A DNA stretch of 36,981 bases from a virus, in IMG/VR virus record IMGVR_UViG_3300032242_003122, positions 1 to 36,981 of that record. One strand, written 5' to 3'. The notes beneath the pieces were generated by a model. The model saw only the letters and a list, made by a program, of their open reading frames with translations. It was not told the DNA's origin and did no database searches. This document shows positions 1-32,590 of the stretch, piece by piece. Position 1 is the first letter of the stretch; the number at the start of each line of letters is the position of its first letter. The translations under genes were made by a program, and so were the position numbers.

Positions 1-842
1 ACATAAACCCACATGTTGTTTTCAGATGGACTAAAATATCCAAAACTATGTAGTTTTTTTGCAGCATTAGTATCAAAAGATAATGTTATTCTATCTGGAA
101 GATCTGATAATTGAAGAGCATTTCCAGCAAAATTAACAAAATGTTTAACAATATCAAGTTGTTTATGATCGGTTGGTTCTTCCTCATGTTCACTAGCATC
201 ATACAACTTCTTAAGATATCCTAAATTTCTTAATTCTTTAAATGCCAAATTCTCTTTTGAATACTCTCCACCACTTTCTAGTCCGTTTTGCCTTAATCTT
301 TTTATTTTATCTTTTAATGTTTGAACTTCTTCTGGCGATGATCCATTAATAGAATCTATCTCATCCATTATTGGTTGAGCTTTCATCATGATTTCTTCAT
401 CATCAATATCAACTTTATTATAAACAGGTTTAATAACCCATTCCCCCCTTAGTAAAGAATAAACACCAGATGATATATGTGGTTCATTTACATCTTGAAC
501 ATAAAGTTCTAACGGCTTTCCATCAAAATTTATTTTATACTCATCACTAAACTCTTTTTTCTTATGTGAAAAGAAGCTTCTCCATGAATCAATATCTGAT
601 AAAGTCTTAAAGTCAATAACTAGATGAATGTCAATATCACTATATTTAGTCCAATTGTAATTTGCTGAAGATCCTGTCAATATAATGTCTACAATAGGAA
701 AGTCTATATTTAAATCCTCATAAAACTTTTCAGCTGTCTTTAAGAACATAACACGAACTTCAGGTGAGATAACATCTCCTCCTGAAAATATTTCCGGATT
801 CAATTCCTCCTTGTTAATATATTCCTCTAACCTATATTTCAT
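1..842 (-). CDS. Partial nucleotidyltransferase-fold protein (3' end outside window)
   Basis: An open frame runs from an ATG at 842-840 to the window edge without a stop (280 codons seen). Residues 56-74 read TGSSANYNWTKYSDIDIHL. This is the Pol-beta-superfamily signature, a G-S turn (57-58) followed by a D-x-D pair (D69, D71) that would bind metal and nucleotide. A helical, charged region follows (about 150-215). Proteins with this signature occur in many marine T4-like phages; the substrate is unknown, and it could transfer a nucleotide to RNA, protein or a small molecule. Its ATG shares one base with the TAA of the preceding gene (TAATG), so the two are probably translationally coupled. 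The fold is fairly sure, the function is not. Confidence 0.75.
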   Translation of the reverse strand, partial: MKYRLEEYINKEELNPEIFSGGDVISPEVRVMFLKTAEKFYEDLNIDFPIVDIILTGSSANYNWTKYSDIDIHLVIDFKTLSDIDSWRSFFSHKKKEFSDEYKINFDGKPLELYVQDVNEPHISSGVYSLLRGEWVIKPVYNKVDIDDEEIMMKAQPIMDEIDSINGSSPEEVQTLKDKIKRLRQNGLESGGEYSKENLAFKELRNLGYLKKLYDASEHEEEPTDHKQLDIVKHFVNFAGNALQLSDLPDRITLSFDTNAAKKLHSFGYFSPSENNMWVY

Positions 843-1141
843 TACTTTTTTGCGTAATCGGGATCCATATTAAGAATAAGTTTTTGTACTAAAGCAGCAT
901 ATCTAGGTAGACTTCTAGATTGTTTTGCTTTTTGAAATATTGTTAATTGAGGCAACTCAGCATTTAAAAAATCTATCAATTCTTGATCGACATCAATACT
1001 CTTTTTTAATGAATTATAAGTTGTATTTGTGTCAGATGCCTTAGCTGCTCGTCCACCGTCGTTATTAGCATATGGTATTGGTGCTGCACCTGGTTGAATT
1101 GCTTCTTTTGTTAAGTCTTCTAATATGCTTTGTAGTTTCAT
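842..1141 (-). CDS. Small tagged protein, function unknown (99 aa)
   Basis: The protein starts MKLQSILEDLTKEAI, one of five in this window with the shared N-terminal pattern M-(K/R)-L-x-x-I-L followed by Glu at position 13 or 14. The rest is polar and predicted helical toward the C-terminus; I do not recognise a family. An ATATTTATA element and a terminator-like hairpin lie just upstream, so this gene probably begins its own transcript, followed by the nucleotidyltransferase. The tag resembles a T4 capsid-targeting propeptide, with possible cleavage after E13, but here P3 is Thr (T-K-E) instead of Leu or Ile, the weakest match of the five. Confidence 0.75.
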   Translation of the reverse strand: MKLQSILEDLTKEAIQPGAAPIPYANNDGGRAAKASDTNTTYNSLKKSIDVDQELIDFLNAELPQLTIFQKAKQSRSLPRYAALVQKLILNMDPDYAKK

Positions 1142-1149
1142 TGGATTCT

Positions 1150-1183
1150 AAAAAAAATAGTGATACTCTTATAAATATCACTA
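1150..1183 (-). terminator. Candidate intrinsic terminator after the nuclease gene
   Basis: Read on the - strand, TAGTGATA (1183-1176) pairs perfectly with TATCACTA (1165-1158) across a 10-base loop and is followed by eight T (1157-1150). It lies 29 bases past the stop of the nuclease gene. The stem is AT-rich and therefore weak. The loop and the first stem arm also contain the proposed late-promoter element. Confidence 0.5.
1170..1178 (-). promoter_or_regulatory. Proposed late-promoter element ATATTTATA
   Basis: ATATTTATA on the - strand, 28 bases before the ATG at 1141. It is one of eight such elements placed before the first gene of - strand units. It sits inside the hairpin of the upstream terminator candidate. 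Confidence 0.4.
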
Positions 1184-1211
1184 GATTCTTTTTAGTTTAT
1201 ATTTTAAAAAA

Positions 1212-2006
1212 TTACCAGCTTTTTTTTACACTATTTGGTATAATTAAATCATTGGGCTCATCTTCTTGATGTTCTAGTTTGAACACATCATATATCTTAA
1301 GAAAGCTCTGGTAGTCTTCTTCTGGTGTATGTGGTGAAACTTTAAGTTGCCATCCTTTTCCTTGAATACTCTTGCCCTTCTTATCTTCTCCTCTTGTAGA
1401 TGCTTTTAACCAAATAACTGCAGTTTCCTCAACAGGAGCTTCTGGAAATAACCTGTTCCATGCTCTTACGTATGCACCAAGTTGCCAAAAGTAAGATGCA
1501 TGTAAATGGTTTGATGTTTTAATATCCCATATTTTTCTTTTCTTCTGGTGTATTACAGTTAAGTCCATAGTTCCTGCATAGATGTCCTCATCGTTATACA
1601 AATAAAACTCACTTGCTACCAATTCTGGCTTTTCTCTCTCCCAGAACTCAGCAAACTTTAAAATCATTTGCCAAACATGCTGTGGATATTTTGGATAACC
1701 ATTGGAATCAATCCAAATAAGCTCTTCACCTTCTAGGTACTTTTCAATACTTTCGTGGACAATAGTTCCTTCCATACCTGCCCGATCTCTGATCAAGTCA
1801 GCATTCATTCCGGTTTCCTTCAACCAATCTTCAAACCATTTTCCTTTAGGTGCACTACCAAGTATGGTTGTAACTGATGGATAATACACTCCCGTTTCAG
1901 GATGCTTGTAGTATCGCATATCATTAACGTGTACTCTCGATAATTCTGGAAAGAATTGTGCCCTCTTAGCTAAGATAGGATCCTTTATTGCTGTTACTGT
2001 AGACAT
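1212..2006 (-). CDS. PD-(D/E)XK nuclease, RecB/Cas4-type exonuclease domain
   Basis: 264 aa. The conserved residues of the RecB/Cas4-like family appear in order: H84 in GTIVHESIEKYL, E133 in VASEFYLY, D148 in YAGTMDL, the D161-x-K163 pair in IWDIKTS, and Q175 with Y179 in FWQLGAY. Together these form the single-metal-site nuclease fold that acts on DNA ends. It lies two bases downstream of the primase gene, so a role in phage DNA replication, recombination or degradation of host DNA is likely. There is no helicase domain, so it acts alone or with a partner. The first residues (1-45) contain YYPSVTTIL, a typical family opening. The fold is confident, the exact pathway is inference. Confidence 0.87.
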   Translation of the reverse strand: MSTVTAIKDPILAKRAQFFPELSRVHVNDMRYYKHPETGVYYPSVTTILGSAPKGKWFEDWLKETGMNADLIRDRAGMEGTIVHESIEKYLEGEELIWIDSNGYPKYPQHVWQMILKFAEFWEREKPELVASEFYLYNDEDIYAGTMDLTVIHQKKRKIWDIKTSNHLHASYFWQLGAYVRAWNRLFPEAPVEETAVIWLKASTRGEDKKGKSIQGKGWQLKVSPHTPEEDYQSFLKIYDVFKLEHQEDEPNDLIIPNSVKKSW

Positions 2007-2007
2007 A

Positions 2008-2943
2008 TTATGATAATTTTATTTTTATTAATTCTGAGAAATCCAATGGTTTTGTATTTTCTAATATTTTTAGTGATGCCTCAAACCCAATCTCGCTAAA
2101 GTCCTTTCCAAAAGACATATCAACAAAATATACTTCTTTGCCCATGTTCATAAGAGTTGTACAATGCTGTACCGCTTCTTTCTTTGCATCATTATCTAGT
2201 GCTATATAAATCTTTTCTACGTCACCTGTTGATAATTTCTTCATTAGTTCTTCAGAAATTGTTTTTCCAAACAAAGGAATCACATTTCTTCTAACCGTAA
2301 TAGCATCAAACACCCCTTCTACTAATATAATAGGAGCTGACCAGTTTATTTGGTACTCCATGCCAATTATATTCCTTGAAACAGGTGGTTTATCGTATTT
2401 TCTTGTAAATTCTACAAAAGTTCTAGCTTCAAAATAGTTTAATTCACCAATTCCATTGTAAGAAGGTATAATAATTCTATTTGCATACTTTCCACTAGGA
2501 CAAAAACCAATATTATAGCTAATAATATGGCTATAATTGATGCCTCTTCCCTCTAAAAATTGATTTGCTTGTCTTGCTTGGGCTCCTAAATGAATATCTT
2601 TTGTTTCAAAATTGGCTAATGATATAAATTCTTCAGGCAAAACTACCTTTTTGATGTTTGTTTCTAATACTTGTCCTGGTTTTTCAGGTAAAATATACTT
2701 TAATTCAGGATATACAAACTCATTTACCTTTATTTTTTTTAATAATTGCCTTATATTACTGCCTCTAAAACCATCTTTTTTGCCGCATACCCAACATTGC
2801 CATTTTTGATTGACAATATTTATCTCTAATTTTCTCTTAGTATGTTTGCAATTAGGGCAATAAAATGAATGATTATTACTGCTAGTTCGTTTTCCAACAC
2901 CTAAAATTGACTCCAAAAAGTAAACTATTGCATCTGTATCCAT
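2008..2943 (-). CDS. DNA primase (zinc ribbon plus Toprim)
   Basis: 311 aa. The N-terminus has a zinc-ribbon with C29-x2-C32 and C50-x2-C53, the latter in WQCWVCGKKDGFRG, as used by DnaG-like primases to read template. The C-terminal half has the Toprim motifs LVEGVFDA (E209, D213) and IALDNDA (D250, D252), the metal-binding centre that makes RNA primers. It is about the length of T4 gp61 and has no fused helicase. The gene follows a Bacteroides-type promoter candidate at 2961-2992 and is followed closely by the nuclease gene, consistent with a small replication unit. GRGINYSHIISYNIGF is a typical linker between the zinc and catalytic parts. Confidence 0.9.
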   Translation of the reverse strand: MDTDAIVYFLESILGVGKRTSSNNHSFYCPNCKHTKRKLEINIVNQKWQCWVCGKKDGFRGSNIRQLLKKIKVNEFVYPELKYILPEKPGQVLETNIKKVVLPEEFISLANFETKDIHLGAQARQANQFLEGRGINYSHIISYNIGFCPSGKYANRIIIPSYNGIGELNYFEARTFVEFTRKYDKPPVSRNIIGMEYQINWSAPIILVEGVFDAITVRRNVIPLFGKTISEELMKKLSTGDVEKIYIALDNDAKKEAVQHCTTLMNMGKEVYFVDMSFGKDFSEIGFEASLKILENTKPLDFSELIKIKLS

Positions 2944-2960
2944 TTAAAACCTTTATTCAA

Positions 2961-2992
2961 CAAAACTACTTAATATTGCTACAAATTACAAT
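2961..2992 (-). promoter_or_regulatory. Candidate Bacteroides-type promoter for the primase unit
   Basis: On the - strand, ATTG (2992-2989), 20 bases, then TAGTTTTG (2968-2961), against the known Bacteroides consensus TTTG-(19-21)-TAnnTTTG. The -7 box matches fully and the -33 box 3 of 4. The -7 box is 17 bases before the primase ATG. Confidence 0.4.
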
Positions 2993-3068
2993 AATTTGCA
3001 AAAATTCCAATGACAATAAACCAAACTGCCGCAACTATTATTGTTATTATTCTTTGTTTTCTAGACAT
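2979..3068 (-). CDS. Micro membrane peptide (29 aa)
   Basis: A short frame encodes MSRKQRIITIIVAAVWFIVI followed by GIFANYCNL. It is a basic N-terminus, one hydrophobic helix of about 18 residues, then a short polar tail, the usual make-up of a phage single-pass membrane peptide. It overlaps the 3' end of the GIY-YIG gene by 22 bases. The ATG is preceded by an A-rich stretch like other starts here. It is short enough to be chance, but the clean topology argues for a real product. Function unknown. Confidence 0.4.
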   Translation of the reverse strand: MSRKQRIITIIVAAVWFIVIGIFANYCNL

Positions 3069-3502
3069 GATTTTATTTTTTGAACATCTTTTCTAAAATA
3101 AGTACCTCCAATATTTTTATTGTACCACTTATCTGAATCCTCAAGAACTTCATTGATAAACATAAACTTTTCTTCGTAATAACTTAATTCTTTTTTACTT
3201 GTACAAAGTCTTAAAATTGTTCTTTTAAAATTATTTTTTCCTAAAGTTTCTACGTCTTGTTTTAGTTCATCATCTGATCCCCAATACCTTTGCCAATCAG
3301 ACTCCCGTACTACCGTTTCTTTTGTCTTCTTACGGCCTTTCTTCCCCTCTTGGGCAGCCATAGCCCTAACACCTAATTTCTTCGTTCTAGTGGAGATTAA
3401 TGACTTCTTACCTATATACTTCTTACCGGTTTGTATATTTTCAATTTGATACACAAAACCTATGTGTTCTTCTAAATTAATTTGATCCTCGTTTATCCAC
3501 AT
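3047..3502 (-). CDS. GIY-YIG endonuclease-like protein
   Basis: 151 aa. The N-terminus has the two halves of the GIY-YIG motif, GFVYQI (15-20) and KKYIGKKSL (27-35), as in the T4 Seg and I-TevI catalytic domains. After this come a basic, disordered stretch (RTKKLGVRAMAAQEGKKGRK) and WQRYWGSDDEL, then a conserved YYEEKFMFINEVLE helix, in which a Glu usually binds the metal. This layout is common in stand-alone phage homing-type nucleases and uncharacterised phage endonucleases. It sits between the primase and the tail genes without disrupting a gene. Its target cannot be told from the sequence. Confidence 0.75.
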   Translation of the reverse strand: MWINEDQINLEEHIGFVYQIENIQTGKKYIGKKSLISTRTKKLGVRAMAAQEGKKGRKKTKETVVRESDWQRYWGSDDELKQDVETLGKNNFKRTILRLCTSKKELSYYEEKFMFINEVLEDSDKWYNKNIGGTYFRKDVQKIKSCLENKE

Positions 3503-3503
3503 G

Positions 3504-4205
3504 TTATGTTGGTTCTCCTAATGTAATTCCAATACTACTTATTCCACTTGATAATCTTCCGTATCCACTAATACTCATAAATCCATAATTAGATGTTTGA
3601 TATTCACCGGTATTACTTGATATAGCAGTATAAGCGGTTGTACCATCTATTTTATAAATGCTTTGTAAGTATATTGTATAAGGTCCTGCATAAGGAGTTA
3701 TTGAAAATGAATTTGAACCAATTGACAAATCAGAAGTATTTTTTGATAATATTTTTACATTATATGTATTCCAAACTTCAATCGTACCTCCAGACTGTAT
3801 TTGAGGATATTTAGTTATATTTACAACAGTAGTATATACAGGCGATGGTGTTGGTGTTTTAGTTGGTGTTAAAGTAATTGTAGGAGTAACTGTTATTGTT
3901 GGTGTAGGTGATTGACTAATAGATATAGATCCAGATGATGGTGTCAATGAAGGTGTTATAGTAGGTGTTGCCGAAGGACTCGCAACTATACAATTTGGTA
4001 TAGCAACTGTTTCCTGAATTACCTTATTCATATCATAAGGATCCATTGAATACAAAGTATAATTACCTGATGGTAAATTACTTGATAATGTTATTGACTG
4101 AGCACCACTTGATATAATGTTATCATATACAATTGTTCCGTCAGGCCCCAATAAAATATAGTGAACTAGTGAAGAAGAATGAGTATAATTAACTGATAAT
4201 ATCAT
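3504..4205 (-). CDS. Tail-fibre-associated protein with Thr/Pro linker (233 aa)
   Basis: Residues 1-80 look like a beta-sandwich (LVHYILLGPDGTIVYDNII, LPSGNYTLYSMDP). A Thr/Pro/Ser linker follows at about 82-122 (PTITVTPTITLTPTKTPTP), then a Gly/Ser/Tyr-rich beta domain to the end. No known domain is recognised. The linker is the same kind as in the 747 and 1130 residue proteins upstream, so the three probably belong to the same surface structure, with the linker spacing a binding domain from an anchoring one. It is the last gene of the tail block and abuts the next gene by one base. Confidence 0.65.
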   Translation of the reverse strand: MILSVNYTHSSSLVHYILLGPDGTIVYDNIISSGAQSITLSSNLPSGNYTLYSMDPYDMNKVIQETVAIPNCIVASPSATPTITPSLTPSSGSISISQSPTPTITVTPTITLTPTKTPTPSPVYTTVVNITKYPQIQSGGTIEVWNTYNVKILSKNTSDLSIGSNSFSITPYAGPYTIYLQSIYKIDGTTAYTAISSNTGEYQTSNYGFMSISGYGRLSSGISSIGITLGEPT

Positions 4206-4206
4206 A

Positions 4207-4719
4207 TTAACAAGTTGCTGTTGAATTTGAAACTTTTACTGGTACTGTATATGGATCTACTAATGCATTTTCTACTTTAGGACATAGCATTGCTTGTCTT
4301 AATATATCATCCAATCTTTCTTGTAAATCACTATAACCAACTCCTCTAAATCCTCCATTGGTAGTTGTTAATTTTGGATTTCCATTTCCATCCAAATCTA
4401 AGTAATTTTTTTTAGAAATATGACTTGTATCAAATTTTAACACAAAATTCATATCTGTTTTTTTTGACATAGGAACTGGCTTTCCAAATTTACCTATTGC
4501 TAATAAATTACCATCATCATCATAAAGACCTAGTCCAGTTGAATATGGAGTAAACTCAGATCCTGTTGCAAAATCAACTAGTGAACTGCTATGATTTACC
4601 TTGTCAGTTAATAAACTTGGATTATATGACATGTTAAATTCATCCTCATGTACTGTACATTGTACAGAAGTTTCTTGAATAGTATGCTCATTTTTAAAAC
4701 TTACAGTGTATGGTATCAT
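4207..4719 (-). CDS. Tail structural protein with the NPS...GL-x2-DDG-x-LLA module (170 aa)
   Basis: About residues 20-100 carry a module that also ends the 339 aa protein at 10403-11422: an acidic residue, a short step to NPSLL, then a gap and GLGLYDDDGNLLAIGKFGKP. Similar modules are known to me from tail proteins of marine T4-like phages, where the function is uncharacterised. The C-terminal part (about 105-170) is unrelated and rich in polar residues. A proposed late element lies only 4 bases before the ATG, which leaves almost no leader; the message may be leaderless or the true start may be further in. Confidence 0.7.
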   Translation of the reverse strand: MIPYTVSFKNEHTIQETSVQCTVHEDEFNMSYNPSLLTDKVNHSSSLVDFATGSEFTPYSTGLGLYDDDGNLLAIGKFGKPVPMSKKTDMNFVLKFDTSHISKKNYLDLDGNGNPKLTTTNGGFRGVGYSDLQERLDDILRQAMLCPKVENALVDPYTVPVKVSNSTATC

Positions 4720-4723
4720 ATTC

Positions 4724-4732
4724 TATAAATAT
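4724..4732 (-). promoter_or_regulatory. Proposed late-promoter element ATATTTATA
   Basis: ATATTTATA on the - strand, 4 bases before the ATG at 4719. This gap is much shorter than the usual 18-28, so either the transcript is nearly leaderless or this copy is chance. Confidence 0.25.
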
Positions 4733-4745
4733 TAGTTTTATTAAA

Positions 4746-7000: not shown

Positions 7001-10000
7001 TTATAATGGGCATGTCACTCCCGTACTTGATACTGTAACCGTTTGCCACGTGTTTGGTTCAATAGTAAGTAAACCACCTGTTAAACTCTGAACTCTACCC
7101 GATATAGATCTGCCATTTGTAACATCATTAAATGTATAACAGTTACCTGCTACTATTGATCCTCCACTACTGCTACTAATTTTTATATTAAATACTGTGT
7201 TATAATCAGCATAGAAATTTCTAAACATTGTATATGTAGTATATGCACCAGTATCTGACTTATATAAACTAGATATAACTCCACTTCCTCCTGTAACTAC
7301 ATATACATATGAATTTGCAAATAAATATAATCCATTTGCTACACGAGTTGTTCTACCAGAATCAGAATATAATATTGATCCAACCGCTAAAGGTGCTCCC
7401 GTACTTCTATTTGTTGTAGCTATTGTATAGAAAACTTGTACCTGTGGGTTGGTACTATCTGTTGGATTTCCTCCCGGAGCTGCAAAAATAGCAATACTAT
7501 TAGTATTATCTCCAACCGTTCTTCTATTAAAAATAATACCTTTATTAAAAATTTCTCCATTACAATCAGTCCACCCTATTATATAAGTTCCGCTTGATAG
7601 TCCTCCACTATTTATATCTAAATAACTAACAGAATTTTCGCCTCTATATTCACCGGCCTGTGATGCAATAGTTTGACCAATTATATTAACAACCGATATA
7701 TTATAGGCTGGCCCATTTACAAATCTTAATAAATCTGATAATCCATCATAATTTCCTTCTATTGGAGCAGTGGTAACAAGTTGTGGACTAGTACAGCAAA
7801 TAGGAAATACATTTCTTTCTCCTATATAAGTATCACACCCTACTGGAGGGGCAATAAGTCTTGTTGTAGGTGTTCCACTTCCATATACCGTACTTGGACT
7901 TGGAGTAATAGTAATACTTGGAGTAATAGTAATACTTGGAGTAACAGTTATTGTTGGGGTAATGCTTGGTGTTACTGTTATAGTAGGGGTAACACTAATA
8001 GTTGGTGTTACCGTAATAGTAGGGGTAACACTTGGGGTTACAGTTATACTTGGAGTTACACTTACACTTGGAGTTACACTTATTGTAGGTGTTAGGGTTA
8101 TAGTTGGAGTAACCGTTATACTAGGAGTAAGACTAATAGTAGGTGTTACAGTTACACTTGGAGTTACACTAATAGTAGGTGTTGGTGTTAAACTAGGAGT
8201 AAGACTAATAGTAGGTGTTACAGTTACACTTGGAGTTACAGTTATTGTTGGGGTAACGCTAATACTTGGTGTTACGGTAATCGTAGGAGTAACGCTAATA
8301 CTAGGAGTTACGGTAATAGTAGGAGTAACACTTGGAGTTACAGTAATACTAGGAGTAACACTAATCGTAGGAGTTACAGTAACGCTTGGAGTAACACTTA
8401 TAGTAGGGGTTAAACTAGGTGTTACAGATATACTTGGAGTAATACTAATACTAGGAGTAACCGTTATAGTAGGGGTAATACTTGGAGTAATACTAATAGT
8501 AGGTGTTAAAGTAATAGTAGGAGTAACACTTATAGTAGGTGTAACTGTTGGAGTAACACTAATAGTAGGAGTAACTGTTATTGTTGGTGTAGGTGACGGT
8601 GTAACAGCAGGAGTTCTACTAGGAGTAGCGGTAACAGTAATAGTAGGAGTAATACTTGGTGTTACACTTATACTTGGTGTTATACTAGGAGTTACGGTAA
8701 TACTTGGAGTAACACTTATAGTTGGTGTAACACTAGGAGTAATACTTATAGTTGGTGTTATACTTGTAGTAATAGTTGGAGTAACACTTGGAGTTACAGT
8801 TATTGTTGGCGTAACAGTCGGTGTTACACTCGGAGTTAAACTAATAGTTGGGGTAATACTTGGAGTAGGAGTTGCCGTAGAAGTAACCGTTGGAGTAACA
8901 CTAATAGTAGGAGTAACTGTTATTGTTGGAGTAATACTTGGAGTAACAGTAACACTAGGGGTTATACTAATAGTTGGAGTTACAGTAACACTTGGAGTAA
9001 CACTAATAGTAGGGGTTAAACTAGGTATTGGGGTACCACTCGGAGTAATACTAATAGTAGGTGTTACCGTAGGAGTAATACTTGGAGTAACAGTAATAGT
9101 AGGAGTTACGGTAATAGTAGGAGTAATACTTGGAGTTACAGTAATAGTAGGAGTTATACTAGGTGTAAGACTTGGTGTAACTGTTGGTGTTTTACTTGGT
9201 GTTCTAGTAGGTGTTAATGTTGGTGTTGATGTTATGGTTGTTGTAATAGTAGGCGTTACACTTGGAGTAACAGTAATAGTAGGAGTAACACTTGGTGTAA
9301 CACTTGGAGTTACAGTTATTGTTGGCGTAATACTAATAGTTGTAGTAATACTAGGTGTAATACTTGGAGTTGGTGTTAGCGAAGGTGCTACCAACAACGT
9401 AAGATCATCGCATTTTCTACAAATATCTATTTTAACATATCTATAATCACTATATAAACCAGTTGTAGTTTTTACTCTATAAAGAGCCTCATAAGCGGCA
9501 ATCTGAGTATTAGTTATTCGGATAACAGTTGCAGAAGGAGTTTGCCATATAAATCCAGCTGAAGGCTGTACTATCTCATAAGAAGCTATTGAAATAGCTG
9601 GGTGAATAGTTGCTAAATTAATATCATAGTATCCACCATTACTAATAATATCCTGATCATAAAGTTTATAATATAACTGCTTAATACCGGGAACTTCTGG
9701 GAAAATATATGTGTATTCACCTGTTATTATTGTATATAAACCATTTATTGTAGTAACAAATCCTGGGCCTAAATCAGCAACCCATGAAGGAAGCTGAGAT
9801 GTTAAATAAGTTCTTACTAAAGGTACTTTACCATTTATGCTTGTAATTCCTTCTTCATAGAAAAAATTTCCGATATGAACACTTCCTGATGAGATATCAT
9901 AAAGATTGCCATTACCATCATCTATAATATAAAATAAAGAAGAAGAAATAACATATGAACCTGGTTTAACTCTATTTCCAAATAAAGCTTTTGGAATCCC

Positions 10001-10393
10001 AACAACTCTAACTTTATCTAGTGATTGAGTTGGATAATTTTCAATTAGTCCTTCATAAGTTTTTTGAGAATACCCAAAAGCATTTCTTAATCCTGTTTGA
10101 TTATCAAAATATGTGGATAAATTAAATGAACCAGATGAAACATTAGATCCACTATAATTAGCTTGATAGTATAATTGATTTATTGAATCGTATAGTATCT
10201 TATTAAAAGATCCATTACTAGTATCCGAACTATATGGATCAAAAAAACCTGGTATATTTTGTGCCGTATAAAACTTTATATCTGTACTGTTGTTAAAGTC
10301 ATCCGCATTAGAAACAGTATATGAATACTGTTTATTTAATGTGATAGGCGATAATACAACATCCCCGGATGAAAGTTTCTTAAGTACATACAT
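7001..10393 (-). CDS. Giant tail-fibre protein with a Thr/Pro tract of about 500 residues (1130 aa)
   Basis: The N-terminal part (1-330) resembles the 339 aa protein just upstream: a Y/F-x-KI-x-Y-x-SI-x2-L-x-Y phrase (FNKILYDSINQLYY) and a later IDDGNGNLYDISSGSVHIGN stretch, seen in phage tail proteins. Residues about 337-835 are almost only T, P, S, I and V in TPSITP and TPTITV units. The last 290 residues form a beta-rich C-terminal domain. The tract is probably extended and, being full of hydroxyl residues, could carry sugars (inference). The layout of an anchoring domain, long stalk and distal domain fits a fibre. It follows the 339 aa gene by nine bases. Confidence 0.78.
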   Translation of the reverse strand: MYVLKKLSSGDVVLSPITLNKQYSYTVSNADDFNNSTDIKFYTAQNIPGFFDPYSSDTSNGSFNKILYDSINQLYYQANYSGSNVSSGSFNLSTYFDNQTGLRNAFGYSQKTYEGLIENYPTQSLDKVRVVGIPKALFGNRVKPGSYVISSSLFYIIDDGNGNLYDISSGSVHIGNFFYEEGITSINGKVPLVRTYLTSQLPSWVADLGPGFVTTINGLYTIITGEYTYIFPEVPGIKQLYYKLYDQDIISNGGYYDINLATIHPAISIASYEIVQPSAGFIWQTPSATVIRITNTQIAAYEALYRVKTTTGLYSDYRYVKIDICRKCDDLTLLVAPSLTPTPSITPSITTTISITPTITVTPSVTPSVTPTITVTPSVTPTITTTITSTPTLTPTRTPSKTPTVTPSLTPSITPTITVTPSITPTITVTPTITVTPSITPTVTPTISITPSGTPIPSLTPTISVTPSVTVTPTISITPSVTVTPSITPTITVTPTISVTPTVTSTATPTPSITPTISLTPSVTPTVTPTITVTPSVTPTITTSITPTISITPSVTPTISVTPSITVTPSITPSISVTPSITPTITVTATPSRTPAVTPSPTPTITVTPTISVTPTVTPTISVTPTITLTPTISITPSITPTITVTPSISITPSISVTPSLTPTISVTPSVTVTPTISVTPSITVTPSVTPTITVTPSISVTPTITVTPSISVTPTITVTPSVTVTPTISLTPSLTPTPTISVTPSVTVTPTISLTPSITVTPTITLTPTISVTPSVSVTPSITVTPSVTPTITVTPTISVTPTITVTPSITPTITVTPSITITPSITITPSPSTVYGSGTPTTRLIAPPVGCDTYIGERNVFPICCTSPQLVTTAPIEGNYDGLSDLLRFVNGPAYNISVVNIIGQTIASQAGEYRGENSVSYLDINSGGLSSGTYIIGWTDCNGEIFNKGIIFNRRTVGDNTNSIAIFAAPGGNPTDSTNPQVQVFYTIATTNRSTGAPLAVGSILYSDSGRTTRVANGLYLFANSYVYVVTGGSGVISSLYKSDTGAYTTYTMFRNFYADYNTVFNIKISSSSGGSIVAGNCYTFNDVTNGRSISGRVQSLTGGLLTIEPNTWQTVTVSSTGVTCPL
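7891..9384 (-). repeat. Tandem coding repeat, about 1.5 kb, encoding TPSITP/TPTITV units
   Basis: The + strand shows phrases like GGAGTAACACTTATAGTA repeating with an 18-base period (sometimes 12). Third positions vary freely (GGA, GGT, GGG; ACA, ACT), while the coded amino acids stay within T, P, S, I and V. This suggests old expansion and selection for the protein composition, not a fresh slippage array. Confidence 0.85.
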
Positions 10394-20585: not shown

Positions 20586-20987
20586 TTATTGTATACCTAA
20601 AGTAATTGTATCTACTGTATTGGATACCTGATATGTCATATTAAATAACAAGGTATTTTCGTAGTTATCATCCATCATCAAACTAAATTCTAAAATATTT
20701 ATTTGAGGAAAGTTTGCTTGTATTTTAGACTTAATTTCACCCTCCCTATCAGAAATTGTATTATTTGATTCAAATATTAGATTTCTTAATCCAAGACCAT
20801 AGCCAGGATTTAACATTCTTTCTCCTTGACCTGTTAAGGTATAGTTTATAATATTAGCTTTTATTTGTTCTTTGGTAGAATACACAGGATTAAATACATT
20901 TCCTGCATTAAATAACAAACTCATCCCAACAATTTTGTTAGGATTGAGATCATCTATGTTAATATTTCTACCAATTATATATGCCAT
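20586..20987 (-). CDS. Baseplate wedge protein, T4 gp25-like
   Basis: 133 aa, the usual length. It shows the family pattern: YSTKEQIKANIINYTLTGQG directly followed by ERMLNPGYGLGLRNLIFE, then ISDREGEIKSKIQANFP and a closing beta pair (LLFNMTYQV, DTITLGIQ). gp25 is a lysozyme-fold-like sheath-initiating wedge subunit and has no enzyme activity in T4. It begins one base from the stop of the 103 aa gene and precedes gp6, matching the synteny of contractile phages. Confidence 0.92.
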   Translation of the reverse strand: MAYIIGRNINIDDLNPNKIVGMSLLFNAGNVFNPVYSTKEQIKANIINYTLTGQGERMLNPGYGLGLRNLIFESNNTISDREGEIKSKIQANFPQINILEFSLMMDDNYENTLLFNMTYQVSNTVDTITLGIQ

Positions 20988-21298
20988 TATTGATTTCTAA
21001 AGTTTGCTAAATCGGCAGGATTTACAGTTTTTGCAAATTCATCTAAGATAGATAATGCTGGATTTTTCCCTGGTTGAGGTACAAATTTTTGTACTGGTGT
21101 GCTATCAATAAGGCCCATTTTACTTGCCATTTGTGCTCTCATATCTTTTTGAGATATATTTGGATTCCTATTTACATCTGCTGAAGTAAAATTAAGTGTT
21201 TGTATAGACTCATTAATACGTTGATTCTCAAGAAGTACTTCTCTAAATCCTTCTTTAACTGCCTCTTTGATTATTCTTTTTAAAGCTTTTGCATCCAT
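20987..21298 (-). CDS. Small protein between spike region and gp25, unknown (103 aa)
   Basis: The N-terminal 35 residues form a strongly amphipathic helix (KALKRIIKEAVKEGFREVLL). The rest is polar and probably extended, with VNRNPNISQKDMRAQM and LSILDEFAKTVNPADLANF. It lies between the hydrophobic 370 aa gene and gp25 and shares a base with the gp25 start. The helix contains IIKEA, like the cleavage context in the tagged proteins, but the M-K-L-x-x-I-L pattern is absent, so I do not count it among them. A proposed late element is 3 bases upstream, overlapping the stop region of the gene above. Confidence 0.6.
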   Translation of the reverse strand: MDAKALKRIIKEAVKEGFREVLLENQRINESIQTLNFTSADVNRNPNISQKDMRAQMASKMGLIDSTPVQKFVPQPGKNPALSILDEFAKTVNPADLANFRNQ

Positions 21299-26748: not shown

Positions 26749-27156
26749 CTACAAAACAAACCTAATGGCATTATCTATTGCATCCATTATTGCAGTTATA
26801 TTTCTATTAACTTGTATATTTTTCTCTTTTATGATTTGTTCAGAAGCATCCAAAGGAAGTGATACTTTACCATCTTCAAACTGTAGTTTTTCTATAAACA
26901 AAGGTACAAAATTAAGCACTGCTGCATTAGCTTGTCTTGGATCTAATCCATCCTCATCTACTAAACTTTTAACTAATTCAGTTCCCTCTGGGCCTAATCC
27001 TTTACCTGCTTGAGCAATAAACATAGATTCAATTTCATCTCTGGTGTCATTTCCTTCAGAATCATCATAGTTGTCAGCAGGATTTTCATCGTACTTCTCC
27101 CAATAACTTTCTTCACCTTCTTTTATGATTGAATCCAATATTTTATAAAGTCTCAT
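26749..27156 (-). CDS. Tagged acidic protein (135 aa)
   Basis: An earlier ATG at 27174 exists, but the start at 27156 is chosen. From there the protein opens MRLYKILDSIIKEGEESYWE, aligning with the four other tags (E13 followed by G, a good T4 prohead-protease-like context), and it places the proposed late element 23 bases away, as at other units, instead of 5. After the tag come an acidic segment (ENPADNYDDSEGNDTRDEIE) and helices (FIAQAGKGLGPEGTELVKSL, VNRNITAIMDAIDNAIRFVL). Acidic phage head proteins of this size occur, but no family is recognised. Confidence 0.65.
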   Translation of the reverse strand: MRLYKILDSIIKEGEESYWEKYDENPADNYDDSEGNDTRDEIESMFIAQAGKGLGPEGTELVKSLVDEDGLDPRQANAAVLNFVPLFIEKLQFEDGKVSLPLDASEQIIKEKNIQVNRNITAIMDAIDNAIRFVL

Positions 27157-27188: not shown

Positions 27189-27199
27189 ATATCCTGATA

Positions 27200-27290: not shown

Positions 27291-27417
27291 TCGCCCATGT
27301 ATATGAGGTATATGTCTTGTATATCTACTGGATATCTATTGTAAATGTGCCTTATATTGCTTTTTTTATAATACTATAGTAAGTACTACTTAAATAAGAA
27401 ATATAACAAAAGATATA

Positions 27418-27441
27418 CTTCCCGTATTACTTCCCGTAATA
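27418..27441 (+). repeat. Two tandem 12-base iteron-like units (left pair)
   Basis: CTTCCCGTATTA (27418-27429) then CTTCCCGTAATA (27430-27441), differing at one base. The same unit recurs inverted in the right pair at 27657-27680. Confidence 0.65.
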
Positions 27442-27656
27442 CTATAAGTAATACTTTAAGTGTAATTAAATTACTCTGTAGTATTACTATAGTAAACTGG
27501 TAGTATAATAATAATTTATTGTAGTTTATAATATATTCAGCTATAAAATACTATAGTCACATGTCAAGAGATGTAAGTAAATATACGGTAGATAGGTAGT
27601 ATTAACTCAGTATTTCTACAGTATTTCTAGTAGGATAATAGCTATTATACTTGTAG

Positions 27657-27680
27657 TATTTCGGGTAGTAATTCGGGAAG
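27657..27680 (-). repeat. Two tandem 12-base iteron-like units (right pair, inverted)
   Basis: On the + strand, TATTTCGGGTAG (27657-27668) then TAATTCGGGAAG (27669-27680). Read on the - strand these are CTTCCCGAATTA and CTACCCGAAATA, inverted copies of the left pair. With flanking TAGTATT the two pairs form an imperfect inverted repeat of about 30 bases spaced by about 210. Confidence 0.65.
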
Positions 27681-27971
27681 TAATACTATTTTTATATTTC
27701 TAATTATTTTAGTTTTCAGTAATAATAAAAATTATTGTTTTTAGGTAGTAATACTACTGATTTACTATAGTATCATAGTGGTTATACTGTAGTGTTATAG
27801 TAATATTTGAGATATTTGATTTAAGACATTATTTTTAGTAAAAATATACAGATATACTACAAGTAATACTATAGTGTCTTAGAATCAAGATATGATACCT
27901 TAAAAAGGATTTGTAGTTAAAACTTATGAGATACTTGTAGTGTTATATAAAGATATATATGGTAGATAGGA

Positions 27972-29558
27972 TTAAATTATTCTATAATTAGCCCCCTCTG
28001 GTATCTTTAAAGTACTTTTAATTTCTTCTGGTGCTATAACTAAAACGTTATCATAGGTTCCAATTTTTTTAGGAAGTTCTTTAAGATTTTCACCTCCTCT
28101 TAATGATAAAACTCGAACTTCACCAAGCTTACTTGCAAATTCATTAAGAGATTCTCCTGTAAAATTAAGACTCAATCTGTTTGGATCTAATTCGCTTATA
28201 TCTAAATTATCTAGACTTTCTTGGTCAATTTTGTATATGTAGATATTTTCAACATTACCTGTTATTTTCTTAATACTTATCTTAGGTCCATCATTAACTC
28301 CATGTATATCCAACTCTTCGGTAGTTACATTCTCTATTAATTCCAATTTACCACATTTGGTTACTGAAATTTCTTTACATTTAAGATTAGAAATCTTGGT
28401 AAGATTATCTAGTTCTCTTGCAGTAAATTTATCGGAGGTTTCTATGTTGGAAATTTCTGAAAGATTACTTAAATTAATAACTTGTATTTCCGAATTTGTG
28501 ATTATGTTTTTTACTATCTTAACATCTCTTGGATTTATATTTTGGTCATCTAGTGAATAGAACCATATGCGAGTCATTTTTCCACCTTCATCTTTTTCGT
28601 ATTCTAATTTATCAAATGTTTCTTGACTTATAAGTTCTACTTTTCTTCTCACCCTTATCTCATCATCTCCACCATCATTATACAGCTTTCTGTTACGCTT
28701 ATATCTACCTTCTTTATCTGGTTGGGCATCTCTGAACATATCTTGTACAGTTTCAACAAATCCTGGGGCAGTACCGTATTCTCTTTCTTCAACGACATAA
28801 ATGTAGTCCTTGTAGTTTGTTGTGCTAATGAATGGTTTTATTAAAACCCTAGCTATTGGACGTTGGATATTAGTATCATCTTCATTTATTAGATATGCGA
28901 TAAGTGTACCCTCCTTAATATCACAATGGACAAATTTCTGACCATTTCCTGATGTCAATGACATGCAACTAGTCCAGCTACGACCTGAAGTCATACCAGC
29001 AATATCATAATTTGCCTTGGAGATAACAATATATCTTTTCTTGTTTTTTCCACTTATTGCAGTCTTTCTTGCTTCATCTTCTTGAAATGCTCTCTTTGCA
29101 TAATCAAACCTTTGAGCAATCCTCAATGATTCCTCACCACCCCTTTTTTTAAGTTTATCTGATACCATGTTAAGCATCTTACCAATACCGACTTTCTGTC
29201 CTCTTGAATCAGTTGCTAAACCATCTAGGTAATCTTTTCCATTGTTTATTTGAAATGTTTTACCAAATAATTCCTTGATTAGATCTTGATTGTTGTAAAG
29301 AGTTAGCTCTAAACCATCAAAGGTTTCAGATTTAAAATCTTCTGGCTTTGCAGTACCCTCTTTCTCGTAGTTAAAATATATTCTTTCTCCACGCTTAGAC
29401 TCTTTACCGGTATATGTGCTTTGTTGCTTTAGCTTAGCCATTAGATCATTGATAACCTTTTCGGTTTCAGGTCTTCTGATATGTTCAGCATAATCTTTGG
29501 CTATAGTTAACTCTAAGGCTTCGTATACGTTAGACTCTAAGATTGAAAATAATTTCAT
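27972..29558 (-). CDS. Tagged protein with SGRSWTSCM motif and leucine-rich tail (528 aa)
   Basis: An in-frame ATG 20 codons upstream (29618) is rejected, because the stretch between contains the proposed divergent promoters. From 29558 it reads MKLFSILESNVYEALELTIA, with the tag ending at E13 before A. Residues about 60-200 contain YFNYEKEGTAKPEDF, KNKKRYIVISKANYDIAG and TSGRSWTSCMSL. Then come GTLIAYLINEDD and RPIARVLIKPF, a pattern I know from uncharacterised marine phage proteins. From about 350 it has leucine-rich-repeat-like strands (VINLSNLSEISNIETSDK, LDNLTKISNLKCKEISVTKC). The conserved Cys within WTSCM suggests an active site, but none is known. It may be delivered with the DNA (see tag). 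Confidence 0.72.
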   Translation of the reverse strand: MKLFSILESNVYEALELTIAKDYAEHIRRPETEKVINDLMAKLKQQSTYTGKESKRGERIYFNYEKEGTAKPEDFKSETFDGLELTLYNNQDLIKELFGKTFQINNGKDYLDGLATDSRGQKVGIGKMLNMVSDKLKKRGGEESLRIAQRFDYAKRAFQEDEARKTAISGKNKKRYIVISKANYDIAGMTSGRSWTSCMSLTSGNGQKFVHCDIKEGTLIAYLINEDDTNIQRPIARVLIKPFISTTNYKDYIYVVEEREYGTAPGFVETVQDMFRDAQPDKEGRYKRNRKLYNDGGDDEIRVRRKVELISQETFDKLEYEKDEGGKMTRIWFYSLDDQNINPRDVKIVKNIITNSEIQVINLSNLSEISNIETSDKFTARELDNLTKISNLKCKEISVTKCGKLELIENVTTEELDIHGVNDGPKISIKKITGNVENIYIYKIDQESLDNLDISELDPNRLSLNFTGESLNEFASKLGEVRVLSLRGGENLKELPKKIGTYDNVLVIAPEEIKSTLKIPEGANYRII

Positions 29559-29567
29559 AAAAAAATA

Positions 29568-29599
29568 TTTGCTTTTAATAATAAATATAAATATGTTTG
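29568..29599 (+). promoter_or_regulatory. Bacteroides-type promoter for the + genes at 29628
   Basis: TTTG (29568-29571), a 20-base spacer, then TATGTTTG (29592-29599): a full match to the known TTTG-(19-21)-TAnnTTTG consensus. The leader to the ATG at 29628 would be about 22 bases. It overlaps the proposed late element of the divergent gene. Confidence 0.6.
29586..29594 (-). promoter_or_regulatory. Proposed late-promoter element ATATTTATA
   Basis: ATATTTATA on the - strand, 27 bases before the ATG at 29558. It overlaps the -7 box of the + promoter by three bases. Confidence 0.45.
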
Positions 29600-29627
29600 T
29601 AAAATAAACATAAAACATTAAAATACT

Positions 29628-29888
29628 ATGTCAGATGAACAAGGTTACGAGGCAGAAATTTCTCCTGAAGAAGAAGCAGCCAATTACGCAGAACAAACGC
29701 AAGAAGAAGCAGAAGCTAGAGCCCAAATGCAAGCTACTATTCAAGAACAAGCTGACCAAGATTATCACCAGTCTCAAATGGATGAGCAAGCTCAAAAAGA
29801 ATATGATCAACAAACTTATGATCTTATTGAACAACTTAGAGAAGTTTATCGGAAACAAAGGATAGAAGAAAAAAAGCAACGATCATGA
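29628..29888 (+). CDS. Acidic glutamine-rich helical protein (86 aa)
   Basis: Nearly one long helix rich in E, Q, A: ISPEEEAANYAEQTQEEAEA, RAQMQATIQEQADQ, TYDLIEQLREVYRKQRIEEK, turning basic at its end. Such acidic-to-basic coiled coils occur among phage DNA mimics and host-protein binders, but no family can be named. It is first in a + strand unit behind a Bacteroides-type promoter, hence probably an early gene. Its stop overlaps the next ATG by 4 bases (ATGA). Two antisense/alternative frames over the same bases are shadows. Confidence 0.6.
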   Translation: MSDEQGYEAEISPEEEAANYAEQTQEEAEARAQMQATIQEQADQDYHQSQMDEQAQKEYDQQTYDLIEQLREVYRKQRIEEKKQRS

Positions 29889-30172
29889 AATTAACTAAAG
29901 TAAATAATAGATTCATCAATAAGATAAAGAGATATCTTGATGAAGTTAAGGTTTCTTACATGGAACTAGGAGAAACTAGAAATTTGGTGATGTTACGAGC
30001 AAATAGCAGATACCATTATCTACTTGTTCATTTTGATGATATGAAAAATAACGAAATGAATAAATTTAGATATTTTGACGTGAAGATTGTTTATCCAATG
30101 AATCCAGATCACGTAATTGAGTCAATTAAAAGATATATAAATGAAGACTATCCTGGAGAGGCTTGTTGCTAA
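29885..30172 (+). CDS. Small early protein, unknown (95 aa)
   Basis: A mixed alpha/beta pattern: KVNNRFINKIKRYLDEVKVS, then strands NLVMLRANSRYHYLLVHFDD and NKFRYFDVKIVY, and a helix HVIESIKRYINEDY. The alternation suggests a compact single domain. It is coupled by an ATGA overlap to the previous gene and overlaps the next by 32 bases. No family recognised. Confidence 0.6.
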   Translation: MKLTKVNNRFINKIKRYLDEVKVSYMELGETRNLVMLRANSRYHYLLVHFDDMKNNEMNKFRYFDVKIVYPMNPDHVIESIKRYINEDYPGEACC

Positions 30173-30323
30173 TATAGATCAGTCTATTGAAGAAAACTAT
30201 GTTGATAAGAAATCAGGTGATATAATAAAGTGGTACATCAATACCTACTACATTTATCAGGAGAATGAATTTATAAAGTCAATTAGAGAAGAAGAACGAG
30301 CTTTTATACATCTAGACACTTAA
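30141..30323 (+). CDS. Small early protein, unknown (60 aa)
   Basis: Reads MKTILERLVANIDQSIEENY, then DIIKWYINTYYIYQENEFIK. The first third overlaps the C-terminal coding of the preceding gene by 32 bases, and the last 20 bases overlap the 3' end of the convergent kinase-like gene. The length and composition are typical of phage early genes. With this much overlap it could be chance, but the start position and helical sequence favour a real gene. Confidence 0.45.
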   Translation: MKTILERLVANIDQSIEENYVDKKSGDIIKWYINTYYIYQENEFIKSIREEERAFIHLDT

Positions 30324-30852
30324 CTACTTTATTTTGGCCATACCCAAACTGTTTTGGATGAAAGTCAATTTTAGTATGCCAAGGAAGTAATTTATCAACT
30401 GCAGTAACGTTATCAACTAGTTTAATAAACAAATCTGATATATCAGGATTGACTTCATTAATTTTATCTATTATCTCGTCATACCTAACTTCATTGTATC
30501 TTGATACTTTTATTGCCCCATACACCCCACCATTAAATCCTGCCTTAGTTAGAGCTAATCCAAGTTTTAGATAATCCTCTAAGAAGTTTCTTGTATCAAG
30601 CTTTTCAAGTATAACATAAGCATCTTTTGGATTTTCTTTGGTTAATCCCTCTCTGTAAACGATTGGAAATAGATCTGGATGTTTCTTAAACATTGGAACC
30701 CATTTAGCTACATACTTAGCCTCACCCACCTTGATAACCTTAGTTGGATCGTTAGATGGATAAACAACATGTTCCATTCCTTGGCCTAGTATTTCCTTGT
30801 CCCTGGTTCGTAGCTCTAAAATAATTTCTTCAAGTATATCTGTTAGTTTCAT
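30304..30852 (-). CDS. Tagged kinase-like protein (182 aa)
   Basis: The start at 30852 is used because it gives the tag MKLTDILEEIILELR and lies 4 bases after the upstream stop. The rest reads as a compact kinase-like fold: a glycine-loop-like ILGQGMEHVVYP, the lysine strand KVIKVGEAKYVAKW, a hinge strand YVILEKLD, and near the end IDFHPKQFGY, which stands where the catalytic loop D-x-H-x4-N lies, then CLDV where the metal-binding D is expected. It is shorter than standard kinases, and the loop's usual N is replaced. I know related proteins in marine phages. Substrate unknown, possibly a host factor if it is injected. Confidence 0.68.
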   Translation of the reverse strand: MKLTDILEEIILELRTRDKEILGQGMEHVVYPSNDPTKVIKVGEAKYVAKWVPMFKKHPDLFPIVYREGLTKENPKDAYVILEKLDTRNFLEDYLKLGLALTKAGFNGGVYGAIKVSRYNEVRYDEIIDKINEVNPDISDLFIKLVDNVTAVDKLLPWHTKIDFHPKQFGYGQNKVVKCLDV

Positions 30853-30856
30853 AATA

Positions 30857-32590
30857 TCACCAAGCCCTGCACGACCAAAAACGAGCAGATGTACGAGGAC
30901 CTGGACTATCACAATGATGTCTGGCCCTAAAAGACTTTCTATGGGAAGGTATATTTTTCTTAATCTTCATATTAGGATCTCCAAAGTTTACTTTAACTAC
31001 CCTTCCTGCTGGATTTTTGACATAGACCGACCTTTTCTTTGGACCATCTGGTGTTAGGAAAGGTTTCCCCAACTGTACCTTACGACCATGATATTCAGCC
31101 TCAGTAATACAATTACAATTAGATTCAGTTATTAGTGTAGCATATTCACGAATAAACTGCTTGAAGTCTTGGAATTCCTGTATCGTCTCAACGTCATACT
31201 CATCGATTTCTTGATCAACAATACCTAGAATAACTTTAGGATTAGTTTTGTTAGCCTTAGCAAACATTAAACGGGTGTTGCCACCTACTAAGTAGTACTT
31301 ATTTGGCTCATACTGAAGTATTAAGGCAGGAGGAGTTTCTTCTGCATCTTCAATGCTTTTCCAGTCCTTACCGTAGTTATTGGCTAGTTTTATAGCTTCT
31401 TCTTTGTCTTTAATATAATATGAGTCAGTATTCTCTAAACGAGACCACATTTTGTCATCTAATGTAATTTCTTTACCATTCAATAAAGAATCACGGATAT
31501 CATCATAAGGTATGTCTAAATCATCTGAAGTACGTTCTATTTCCTCTGATTCAGATTCTATGTAGGATTCACGATCAGACATGTCAGCCCCTTCCTTTAA
31601 ACCAGACTTAAAGCCACATAGTGAAATAAATTCTTTTACATCAAGCTTTATACCTTCAGCCTTTAGCTGTTTGATCTGCTTCTTGGCTAATTCCTTTCTG
31701 TTAGTGATATCCTTAACTCCTCTGACGATCTCAGCGATTCCTTCGATCATATCTCTTTCGTCCTCCGGAGTTATATCATTCTCATTAATTGGAACGCAAT
31801 TAGGAACTTGTTTTCCATTTTTAATTTTACCTCCAACTTGTTTGTAGCCATCCCAGCAATCTTCGCATAATGCGTTCATTTCGCCTTCATTACATTTCTT
31901 CCAGGTTCCACCTTTGGATTTGTAGTTCTTTGCGGCCCAACCATTCGCATAAGCACTTGGATATACGTCAAACTTAGATTTAGCTAATGCTTTTGATGCT
32001 GACCACTTACCGGGATCATTTGGACAGTTTCTTTCTAAAAATAGATTTAGTTTTTCTTCTAGATTCATTTCTTCATTCTTTTTTTTTCCTGCACAATGTG
32101 CTTTTTGAGAAAATCCTTTTGGATGACTGCAGTCTATACTATTTTTGTATTTCTGACTCCAGCTTTCATTCTTTGGTTTTGTAGAAACATTTATGGGTGC
32201 CTTGCCTTGCCCAGCACTATCTTTGCCTCCTCTGTCAGCAGCGTTTTGTGCTTTTCTCTTTCTTTCAGTGGCACTCTCCTTTTCTTTCTTGCTCATGGTA
32301 GCAGCTTTGGCAGCAGGAACACACTTAGCGTATCCTTTCTTTTCACCTGAAGTTCCACAAGGGGGATGCTTGCCATTAACTTTTTTTCCAATGTTTACCC
32401 ACTTTTCTTTAAACCATTTACGAAGGTCTTCATTAACTGGAGTATTATCATGTCCACACTTATGACAAGTATAGGTATCAGTACCACCATCTGCTATATT
32501 CCACTGCCAGCCACACTTATCGCATGTAACTATACCGTCTTTTATACTCTCGTTAAGTATTATGTCAGAAAGTATGTCTGTTAACTTCAT
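30857..32590 (-). CDS. Tagged multidomain protein: zinc ribbon, repeated Cys modules, ParB-like domain, FRARHxC tail (577 aa)
   Basis: After the tag (MKLTDILSDIILNES, candidate cut after E14) come a zinc ribbon (C23-x2-C26, C42-x2-C45), a DUF5872-like stretch (KWVNIGKKVNGKHPPCGTSG to VPAAKAATMSKKEKE), a second related stretch (LNLFLERNCPNDPGKWSASK to KSKGGTWKK), then EDCWDGYKQVGGKIKNGKQV. About 340-460 has a ParB/Srx-like pattern ending YYLVGGNTRLMFAKA. The last 79 residues (499-577) form a conserved phage tail (RVVKVNFGDPNMKIKK, SFRARHHC, ARFWSCRAW). Possible protease cuts LITE-S and CITE-A (after E489 and E497) separate the ParB-like part from the tail. A DNA- or partner-binding role is inferred. 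Confidence 0.72.
   Translation of the reverse strand: MKLTDILSDIILNESIKDGIVTCDKCGWQWNIADGGTDTYTCHKCGHDNTPVNEDLRKWFKEKWVNIGKKVNGKHPPCGTSGEKKGYAKCVPAAKAATMSKKEKESATERKRKAQNAADRGGKDSAGQGKAPINVSTKPKNESWSQKYKNSIDCSHPKGFSQKAHCAGKKKNEEMNLEEKLNLFLERNCPNDPGKWSASKALAKSKFDVYPSAYANGWAAKNYKSKGGTWKKCNEGEMNALCEDCWDGYKQVGGKIKNGKQVPNCVPINENDITPEDERDMIEGIAEIVRGVKDITNRKELAKKQIKQLKAEGIKLDVKEFISLCGFKSGLKEGADMSDRESYIESESEEIERTSDDLDIPYDDIRDSLLNGKEITLDDKMWSRLENTDSYYIKDKEEAIKLANNYGKDWKSIEDAEETPPALILQYEPNKYYLVGGNTRLMFAKANKTNPKVILGIVDQEIDEYDVETIQEFQDFKQFIREYATLITESNCNCITEAEYHGRKVQLGKPFLTPDGPKKRSVYVKNPAGRVVKVNFGDPNMKIKKNIPSHRKSFRARHHCDSPGPRTSARFWSCRAW

Follow-up and report, generated by a model that had tools for sequence, protein, structure and literature searches.

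Why do five proteins encoded on one stretch of viral DNA begin alike when their bodies are not significantly similar to one another? The window analyzed here, meaning the whole stretch of 36,981 bases, is the complete IMG/VR record IMGVR_UViG_3300032242_003122 and probably a fragment of a phage genome. Its proteins starting at positions 1141, 27156, 29558, 30852, and 32590 (proteins 1 to 5, Table 1) all open with M-(K/R)-L-x-x-I-L and carry a Glu at position 13 (four proteins) or 14 (one), with A, G, A, L, and S, respectively, as the next residue, which is how the original prediction had described them. This tag is a real feature and a broader one than first noted. We consider it likely that the shared N-terminus is, as had been proposed, a propeptide of the capsid-targeting type of phage T4, with cargo proteins being packed into the head, trimmed, and probably injected. 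This reading comes from comparison: related tags are common in relatives of the phage, with the head and packaging block as their main location, they end in (L/I)-x-E of the T4 type and precede complete domains, and they are similar to how T4 gp24 and the relatives' major capsid proteins begin.

To judge from its sequence, the window is a 37-kb piece of a T4-like phage whose relatives include Flavobacterium phage immuto. The latter has been cultured on Flavobacterium sp. LMO8, and its 160 kb contain gp20-, gp21-, and gp23-like genes. The window and immuto share genes for a GIY-YIG protein, primase, and exonuclease as well as several consecutive baseplate genes, with the baseplate wedge proteins being 41.6% identical. 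The contigs nearest to the window (L010, L329, L330, and L331) show 92-98% identity in single proteins, and L010 extends the window sequence leftwards from the exonuclease to the terminase and portal genes. A T4-type prohead protease, which is predicted to cut the tag motif, was found in eight of the nine long relatives searched.

Past residue 15, the five proteins have no significant mutual similarity (best pairwise BLAST E-value 0.067), and the claim of unrelated bodies is thereby borne out. Since the codons of the tag differ among the five, a recent duplication of a single leader is disfavored. For the proteins starting at 27156, 29558, and 30852 the longest open reading frame begins upstream (Table 1), the tag start being an internal ATG. 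Start 30852 is backed by a homolog on L258 beginning MIKLTDILQEL and by its position four bases after the previous stop codon, and start 1141 by its counterpart on L010, which likewise begins MKLQSIL; for starts 27156 and 29558 no homolog spanning the start was found.

In a list of 48 window genes compiled by ourselves, with the tag starts used for the three ambiguous genes, five begin with M(K/R)LxxIL, compared to 2 among 1118 genes from five relatives (binomial p = 3e-8). Shuffling within proteins produced a mean of 0.0035 matches and column permutation a mean of 0.129, with five or more matches in none of 20000 runs of either kind. A wider gene set with automatic start calls, which missed some of the window tags, contained 13 matches among 4165 starts (six body clusters) vs. 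none among 18221 internal Met. Of 6798 starts, 71 (60 distinct) bear strict tag forms, a number in which the window's own pieces (L001-L005) are counted again, compared to only one of 26582 internal Met. In its exact form, M(K/R)LxxIL is the dialect of the window and, with 2 of 1118 genes, a rare one in the relatives, whose starts include the dialects MIKLxx(I/L)LxE, MKKSxLxxIIKE, and FDLKKFLVEN. The strict forms stand at the head of 70 distinct proteins, whose bodies fall into 27 clusters, 15 of which consist of a single protein; at least one of the 70, the membrane-type-looking L387_4136, is probably a false match.

In immuto, the region bounded by the GIY-YIG gene and the capsid genes contains tags as well, namely MKKSELVKLIKE, MKKSQLREIIRKE, and, on a small kinase-like protein, MISIYNILKE; also encoded there are three proteins with F(D/N)L(K/R)(K/S)FL(V/T)EN and a nucleotidase with MKKVMGNLADLLLE. 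Extended to F(D/N)L(K/R)(K/S)FL(V/T)EN(K/R)LT, this second leader was seen on four immuto proteins (Table 1), one of them far from the head block. Tagged immuto genes start at 102294, 103366, 103806, 109856, 111184, 112261, 113188, 117631, and 118632. The block, running from primase/exonuclease through prohead protease and major capsid protein, was defined on immuto and then tested in four other long records, all of which show the same gene order (GIY-YIG, primase, exonuclease, terminase, portal, protease, major capsid protein). Across immuto and the four near-complete relatives, (L/I)xE occurs within residues 4-16 in 88 of 176 block genes vs. 125 of 852 genes elsewhere (immuto, 20/31 vs. 25/180; G042, 18/30 vs. 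24/174; G043, 16/43 vs. 30/176; G044, 20/35 vs. 28/171; G045, 14/37 vs. 18/151). When immuto is left out, the values are 68 of 145 and 100 of 672. For internal Met, the count is 410 of 3422. Genes starting with MIKL number eight in G044, four within the block and four outside of it.

Contigs L451 and L452, whose genes were named by sequence likeness, show the order GIY-YIG, primase, exonuclease and then other genes including three that start with MIKLFDIL or MIKLINIL, followed by a multi-module protein starting with MDQNKIKSIIESVIME and directly thereafter by a kinase-like protein starting with MIKLTDILQE. In L451 the terminase comes further along in this order, and L258, a part of the same record, continues to the portal, protease, and capsid genes, the protease match being confirmed in that record. 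The MDQNKIKSIIESVIME protein and protein 5 both contain zinc-ribbon-like, ParB-like, and C-terminal modules. The window's adjacent pair, 32590 followed by 30852, corresponds to this head-block pair of L451, but is situated beyond the window's tail genes.

With a core pattern that was blind to Glu, 161 of 5550 distinct starts were collected; in 102 of these 161, Glu is found two positions after the core, while the position in between is variable, which corresponds to the T4 rule (L/I)-x-E. Applied to 22 T4 proteins, this rule flags seven of nine core and protease-substrate proteins (ipII, ipIII, gp67, gp68, gp21, gp22, and gp24, with ipI and gp23 missed) vs. two of 13 others (gp2 and lysozyme e). 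Each of the five window tags holds at least one (L/I)xE within its first 14 residues. The third-last residue up to Glu 13 or 14 is T, I, V, I, and L in the order of the proteins, so that (L/I)xE falls at 13 or 14 in those starting at 27156, 30852, and 32590, whereas 29558 has V in place of L/I, 1141 has T-K-E, and these two contain the motif at residue 8 only (I-L-E). This I-L-E is an alternative candidate cut site in three of the five tags. The proposal of a capsid-targeting propeptide is supported by the comparison with relatives, T4 gp24, and major capsid proteins, whereas the cut that it had placed at residue 13 or 14 fits (L/I)xE in three proteins only.

Several domain matches begin shortly after a tag. 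A Pfam zeta toxin match starts at residue 11 after MINLTDLILE (E = 1.4e-10), and DUF5872 starts at residue 12 after MKLIDILKQMLLE and at residue 15 after MKLTHILRQLLEE, both above the cut-off, as well as at residue 18 of a third protein, below the cut-off. NT5C starts at residue 24 of the immuto nucleotidase (4.7e-5, just below the cut-off), and a weak ADP-ribosyltransferase match (0.0011, below the cut-off) at residue 17 after MIKLIDLLNE. Among 20 distinct nucleotidase sequences, several kinds of leader precede the conserved Y-C-D-M-D-G. As the positions of these matches indicate, the tags are add-ons to complete bodies. A tagged protein of G045 (L437:4561-5892, minus strand) unites two enzyme types: its start is P-loop or zeta-like, and a weak match to NT5C is located close to its end. 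Two further tagged proteins (L416:4738-5773 and L190:2239-2769) have LYHYT/LYHFT starts, one together with a below-cut-off match to ADP-ribosyltransferase, which is also the type of T4's packaged Alt.

Tagged genes were absent (0/559) from stretches of 20 long records without a detected protease, vs. 59 of 4096 genes in T4-like loci and the window, a comparison that excludes 60 of the 80 loci of a third scan. Taking in all 80 loci, the third scan contained 8 tagged genes among 303 in 25 loci with immuto-type genes vs. 1 among 1262 in the 55 loci without, which points to a tag confined to T4-like phages.

The internal proteins of T4 carry capsid-targeting sequences of 10-19 residues, of which ten residues suffice in IPIII, with residues 4 and 7 serving targeting and residues 8 and 10 processing (PMC9026906). 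The leader is reported to direct packaging and to be removed by the prohead protease (PMC9026906; PMC5694885), Alt is cut at ITE-6 (PMC5694885), and Ip1-3 have the leader alone in common (PMC12373910); the biology of these sequences is also treated in PMC3012670. Mutants of T4 in ip genes fail to plate on some strains. Two features of such leaders that can be looked for in a sequence are present in the tags: as in the internal proteins and Alt, a short N-terminal leader is common to proteins with unrelated bodies, and it ends in (L/I)-x-E, as in ipII and ipIII (MKTYQEFIAE). The tags differ from the T4 leaders in their letters, M(K/R)LxxIL or MIKLxx(I/L)LxE, and in being found, in the relatives, on many more bodies including predicted enzymes, for which packaging and cleavage would follow by analogy. 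T4 gp24 starts with MAKINELLRE followed by S, the same plan as in MIKLTDILQE and MIKLSELLSE, and its propeptide is counted among those of 10-20 residues (PMC5694885). Unlike the presumed cargo, gp24 is a part of the shell, and the strict gp24-like pattern occurs in the window only at 30852.

The immuto-type major capsid proteins start with MELNQLFE, MEINQLLE, or MNVQSLLE and show the same ungapped plan, M-x-hydrophobic-x-x-hydrophobic-hydrophobic-E, as the tags at 1141, 29558, and 30852. This plan was found in six of 1118 genes of the five relatives, four of them capsid proteins by BLAST. In 61 capsid alignments it is present at most N-termini; unlike in the tags, the conserved stretch continues and stops at (I/L)(V/L)(S/A/D)E near residue 59. 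G044 possesses two adjacent major capsid genes (L413:17830-19527; G044 99601-101304), 59% and 55% identical to that of immuto, and its second capsid gene is one of the four just mentioned. Head and ejected proteins of the giant phages SPN3US and phiKZ also shed N-terminal propeptides after Glu (PMC10052503; PMC5694885). These propeptides are mostly longer than 100 residues and have A-x-E or S-x-E motifs, whereas the tags are 13-14 residues long and show I, V, L, or T three positions before the putative cut, and the phiKZ type of protease motif was rejected on length and residue.

Under the capsid-targeting reading, the tag would form a short helix that docks its protein on the scaffold core during head assembly, and a T4-type prohead protease would cut after (L/I/V)-x-E at its end. 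The trimmed body would remain in the head with the DNA and enter the cell at infection, the cargo being the kinase-like body, the multi-module body with zinc, DUF5872, and ParB-like parts, the WTSCM body, and two small ones. Docking, cleavage, packaging, and injection, as well as every effector function, are steps that we infer by analogy.

The bodies themselves were compared with several databases. Protein 1 showed no family beyond chance level in Pfam, PHROGs, and NCBIfam; its counterpart in L010 likewise directly follows the exonuclease gene. For protein 2, a single partial homolog was found (L329). Jumbo phages of Dickeya, Erwinia, and Pseudomonas encode relatives of the WTSCM body of protein 3, and in the four examples examined (from Dickeya, Erwinia, and Pseudomonas phages and LR756504) the tag is absent from the start; a search of viral contigs by peptide patterns yielded no relatives. 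Protein 4 gave a weak Pfam match to Kinase-PolyVal (E = 0.0032, below the cut-off), and a five-row alignment (A5) shows no variation in L-G-x-G, two Lys, and the last Asp. Used singly as query it found no relatives, and with two sequences only two loci, both with the same gene pair; a homolog with 49% identity and the tag MIKLTDILQE is encoded in the head block of another contig. An AlphaFold model of the kinase-like protein (predicted local distance difference test score of 40) was too poor for a fold search, and PDB sequence searches with kinase-like, nucleotidase, and zeta-like proteins yielded no match. Protein 5 consists of a zinc ribbon, DUF5872 (Pfam, E = 1.9e-6), other small modules, a ParB-like stretch, and a C-terminal module, its PHROGs matches being several families of unknown function; these modules are found separately or reordered in other phages. 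It contains six (LIVMF)xE(AGSN) sites vs. 2.4 in shuffles (p = 0.03), and the two ITE sites listed in Table 1 are possible internal cuts; that protein 5 is cut into pieces is offered as a suggestion only. NCBIfam matched one of the five proteins, at chance level only, and the PHROGs matches of the five include no named internal protein, no direct comparison with the T4 internal protein bodies having been made.

Table 1. Positions and strands of the tagged genes and associated features; numbering is that of the window unless a contig is named.
Feature	Positions	Strand	Description
Tagged protein 1	842..1141	(-)	99 residues; tag MKLQSILEDLTKE followed by A, at 1103-1141; directly after exonuclease
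Exonuclease and primase	1212..2943	(-)	anchors; in relatives they open the block leading to terminase, portal, protease, and capsid genes
Tagged protein 2	26749..27156	(-)	135 residues; tag MRLYKILDSIIKE followed by G, at 27118-27156; alternative start 27174
Tagged protein 3, WTSCM body	27972..29558	(-)	528 residues; tag MKLFSILESNVYE followed by A, at 29520-29558; alternative start 29618
Tagged protein 4, kinase-like	30304..30852	(-)	182 residues; tag MKLTDILEEIILE followed by L, at 30814-30852; alternative start 30912 (GTG)
Tagged protein 5, multi-module	30857..32590	(-)	577 residues; tag MKLTDILSDIILNE followed by S, at 32549-32590
Two (L/I)-x-E sites in protein 5	31100..31124	(-)	ITE followed by S (residue 489) and ITE followed by A (residue 497), shortly ahead of the C-terminal module
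Second-leader proteins of immuto	L006:1803-2318, L008:3806-4354, L008:17631-18632, L008:18632-18931		

A number of observations speak against the capsid-targeting reading. About half of the relatives' block genes lack an early (L/I)xE, on which the idea that all proteins of the cargo block are tagged fails, and 15% of other genes have one. The place usual for Glu in the relatives, two residues after the core, is occupied only in the tag at 30852, the other four window tags depending on Glu 8, 13, or 14; moreover, four of the five are at least 25 kb away from the exonuclease end, beyond the tail genes, and the window fragment contains neither a prohead protease nor a capsid gene, so that the suggested look at the cleavage pattern was confined to the relatives. 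The capsid proteins of L173, L185, L187, and Mel-JY01 lack the Glu-8 pattern, and homologs of protein 5 in the protease-bearing T4-like L173, L174, L185, and L187 have neither tag nor zinc ribbon, so that they either are not cargo there or travel by a different route. One tagged gene is located in L188, a 9-kb locus without immuto-type genes (of the five remaining loci with tagged genes in the third scan, L192 yielded a protease, but L170 and the short fragments L189, L190, and L196 did not). Limited literature searches yielded no virion data in publications naming immuto and, among the matches listed, no proteome of a Flavobacterium myovirus and, for capsid targeting in Bacteroidetes, only a prophage-encoded Bacteroides toxin, with other matches concerning T4, SPN3US, P1, and related work; the part of PMC7077304 available to us contains no virion data and no mention of immuto.

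Part of the evidence would also be compatible with the tag being a helix by which assembly factors dock on the scaffold core or on a different assembly partner; these factors would not be injected, and Glu would be an uncut part of the docking surface. The concentration of tags in the head block is in line with this explanation, as is the finding that the T4 residues for targeting (4 and 7) and for processing (8 and 10) can in part be separated (PMC9026906). Nevertheless, we regard it as unlikely, given that the bodies look less like assembly factors than like enzymes (zeta toxin, nucleotidase, kinase-like) and that no residue after the core is more constant than Glu. Still less probable is a role of the tag, unrelated to packaging, in bringing proteins to a chaperonin or to some other partner of the phage during infection: the N-terminus of a T4 head protein is said, in the title of one study, to direct proteins to GroEL, immuto encodes GroEL and GroES, and the relatives' capsid N-termini resemble the tag, but the (L/I)-x-E ending and the position before complete small domains are left unexplained. 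Finally, a chance likeness or an ordinary start feature of AT-rich genomes, including the common helical start that had been named as a refuting case, is rejected as highly improbable by the shuffles, column permutations, internal-Met, and rest-of-genome controls, even though some 15% of other genes contain an early (L/I)xE.

Some further features of the window were noted. A predicted protein of 1130 residues (7001-10393, minus strand), flanked by tail-fiber-like genes, contains a long run of T-P-S-V/I-T type repeats, of which a long antisense open reading frame (7962-9446, plus strand) is probably a by-product. Within the baseplate block, the protein encoded at 20987-21298 (minus strand) begins with MDAKALKRIIKEAVKEGF. 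Its N-terminal 22 residues are matched (59% of 22) by the beginning of an immuto gene located at 81525, and the protein may have a tag of a different type, comparable to the IIKEA starts of immuto. The gene at 35679-36317 (plus strand) has about 30% identity to an untagged gene of immuto's cargo block (112575), and, unlike the latter, is located elsewhere and on the opposite strand.

Going beyond capsid targeting as such, it is conceivable, if rather doubtful, that T4-like phages of the immuto lineage put a lineage-wide, capsid-like label on any acquired effector and, in addition, that multi-module cargo such as protein 5 is diced at internal (L/I)-x-E sites in the prohead into separate injected effectors. 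The acquired effectors would comprise zeta-toxin-like kinases, small protein-kinase-like proteins, nucleotidases, HAD phosphatases, and perhaps ADP-ribosyltransferases. Phage proteins that enter the cell together with the DNA are usually learnt phage by phage. If the capsid-targeting reading is correct, it would become possible to list from sequence which proteins a large group of uncultured phages injects, and this list would hold more predicted enzymes than the internal proteins of T4. Since the tagged Ip1-3 of T4 inhibit different GmrSD restriction enzymes (PMC12373910), the tag would also be a search key for anti-defense proteins, and it may provide a packaging tag for phages of Bacteroidota.

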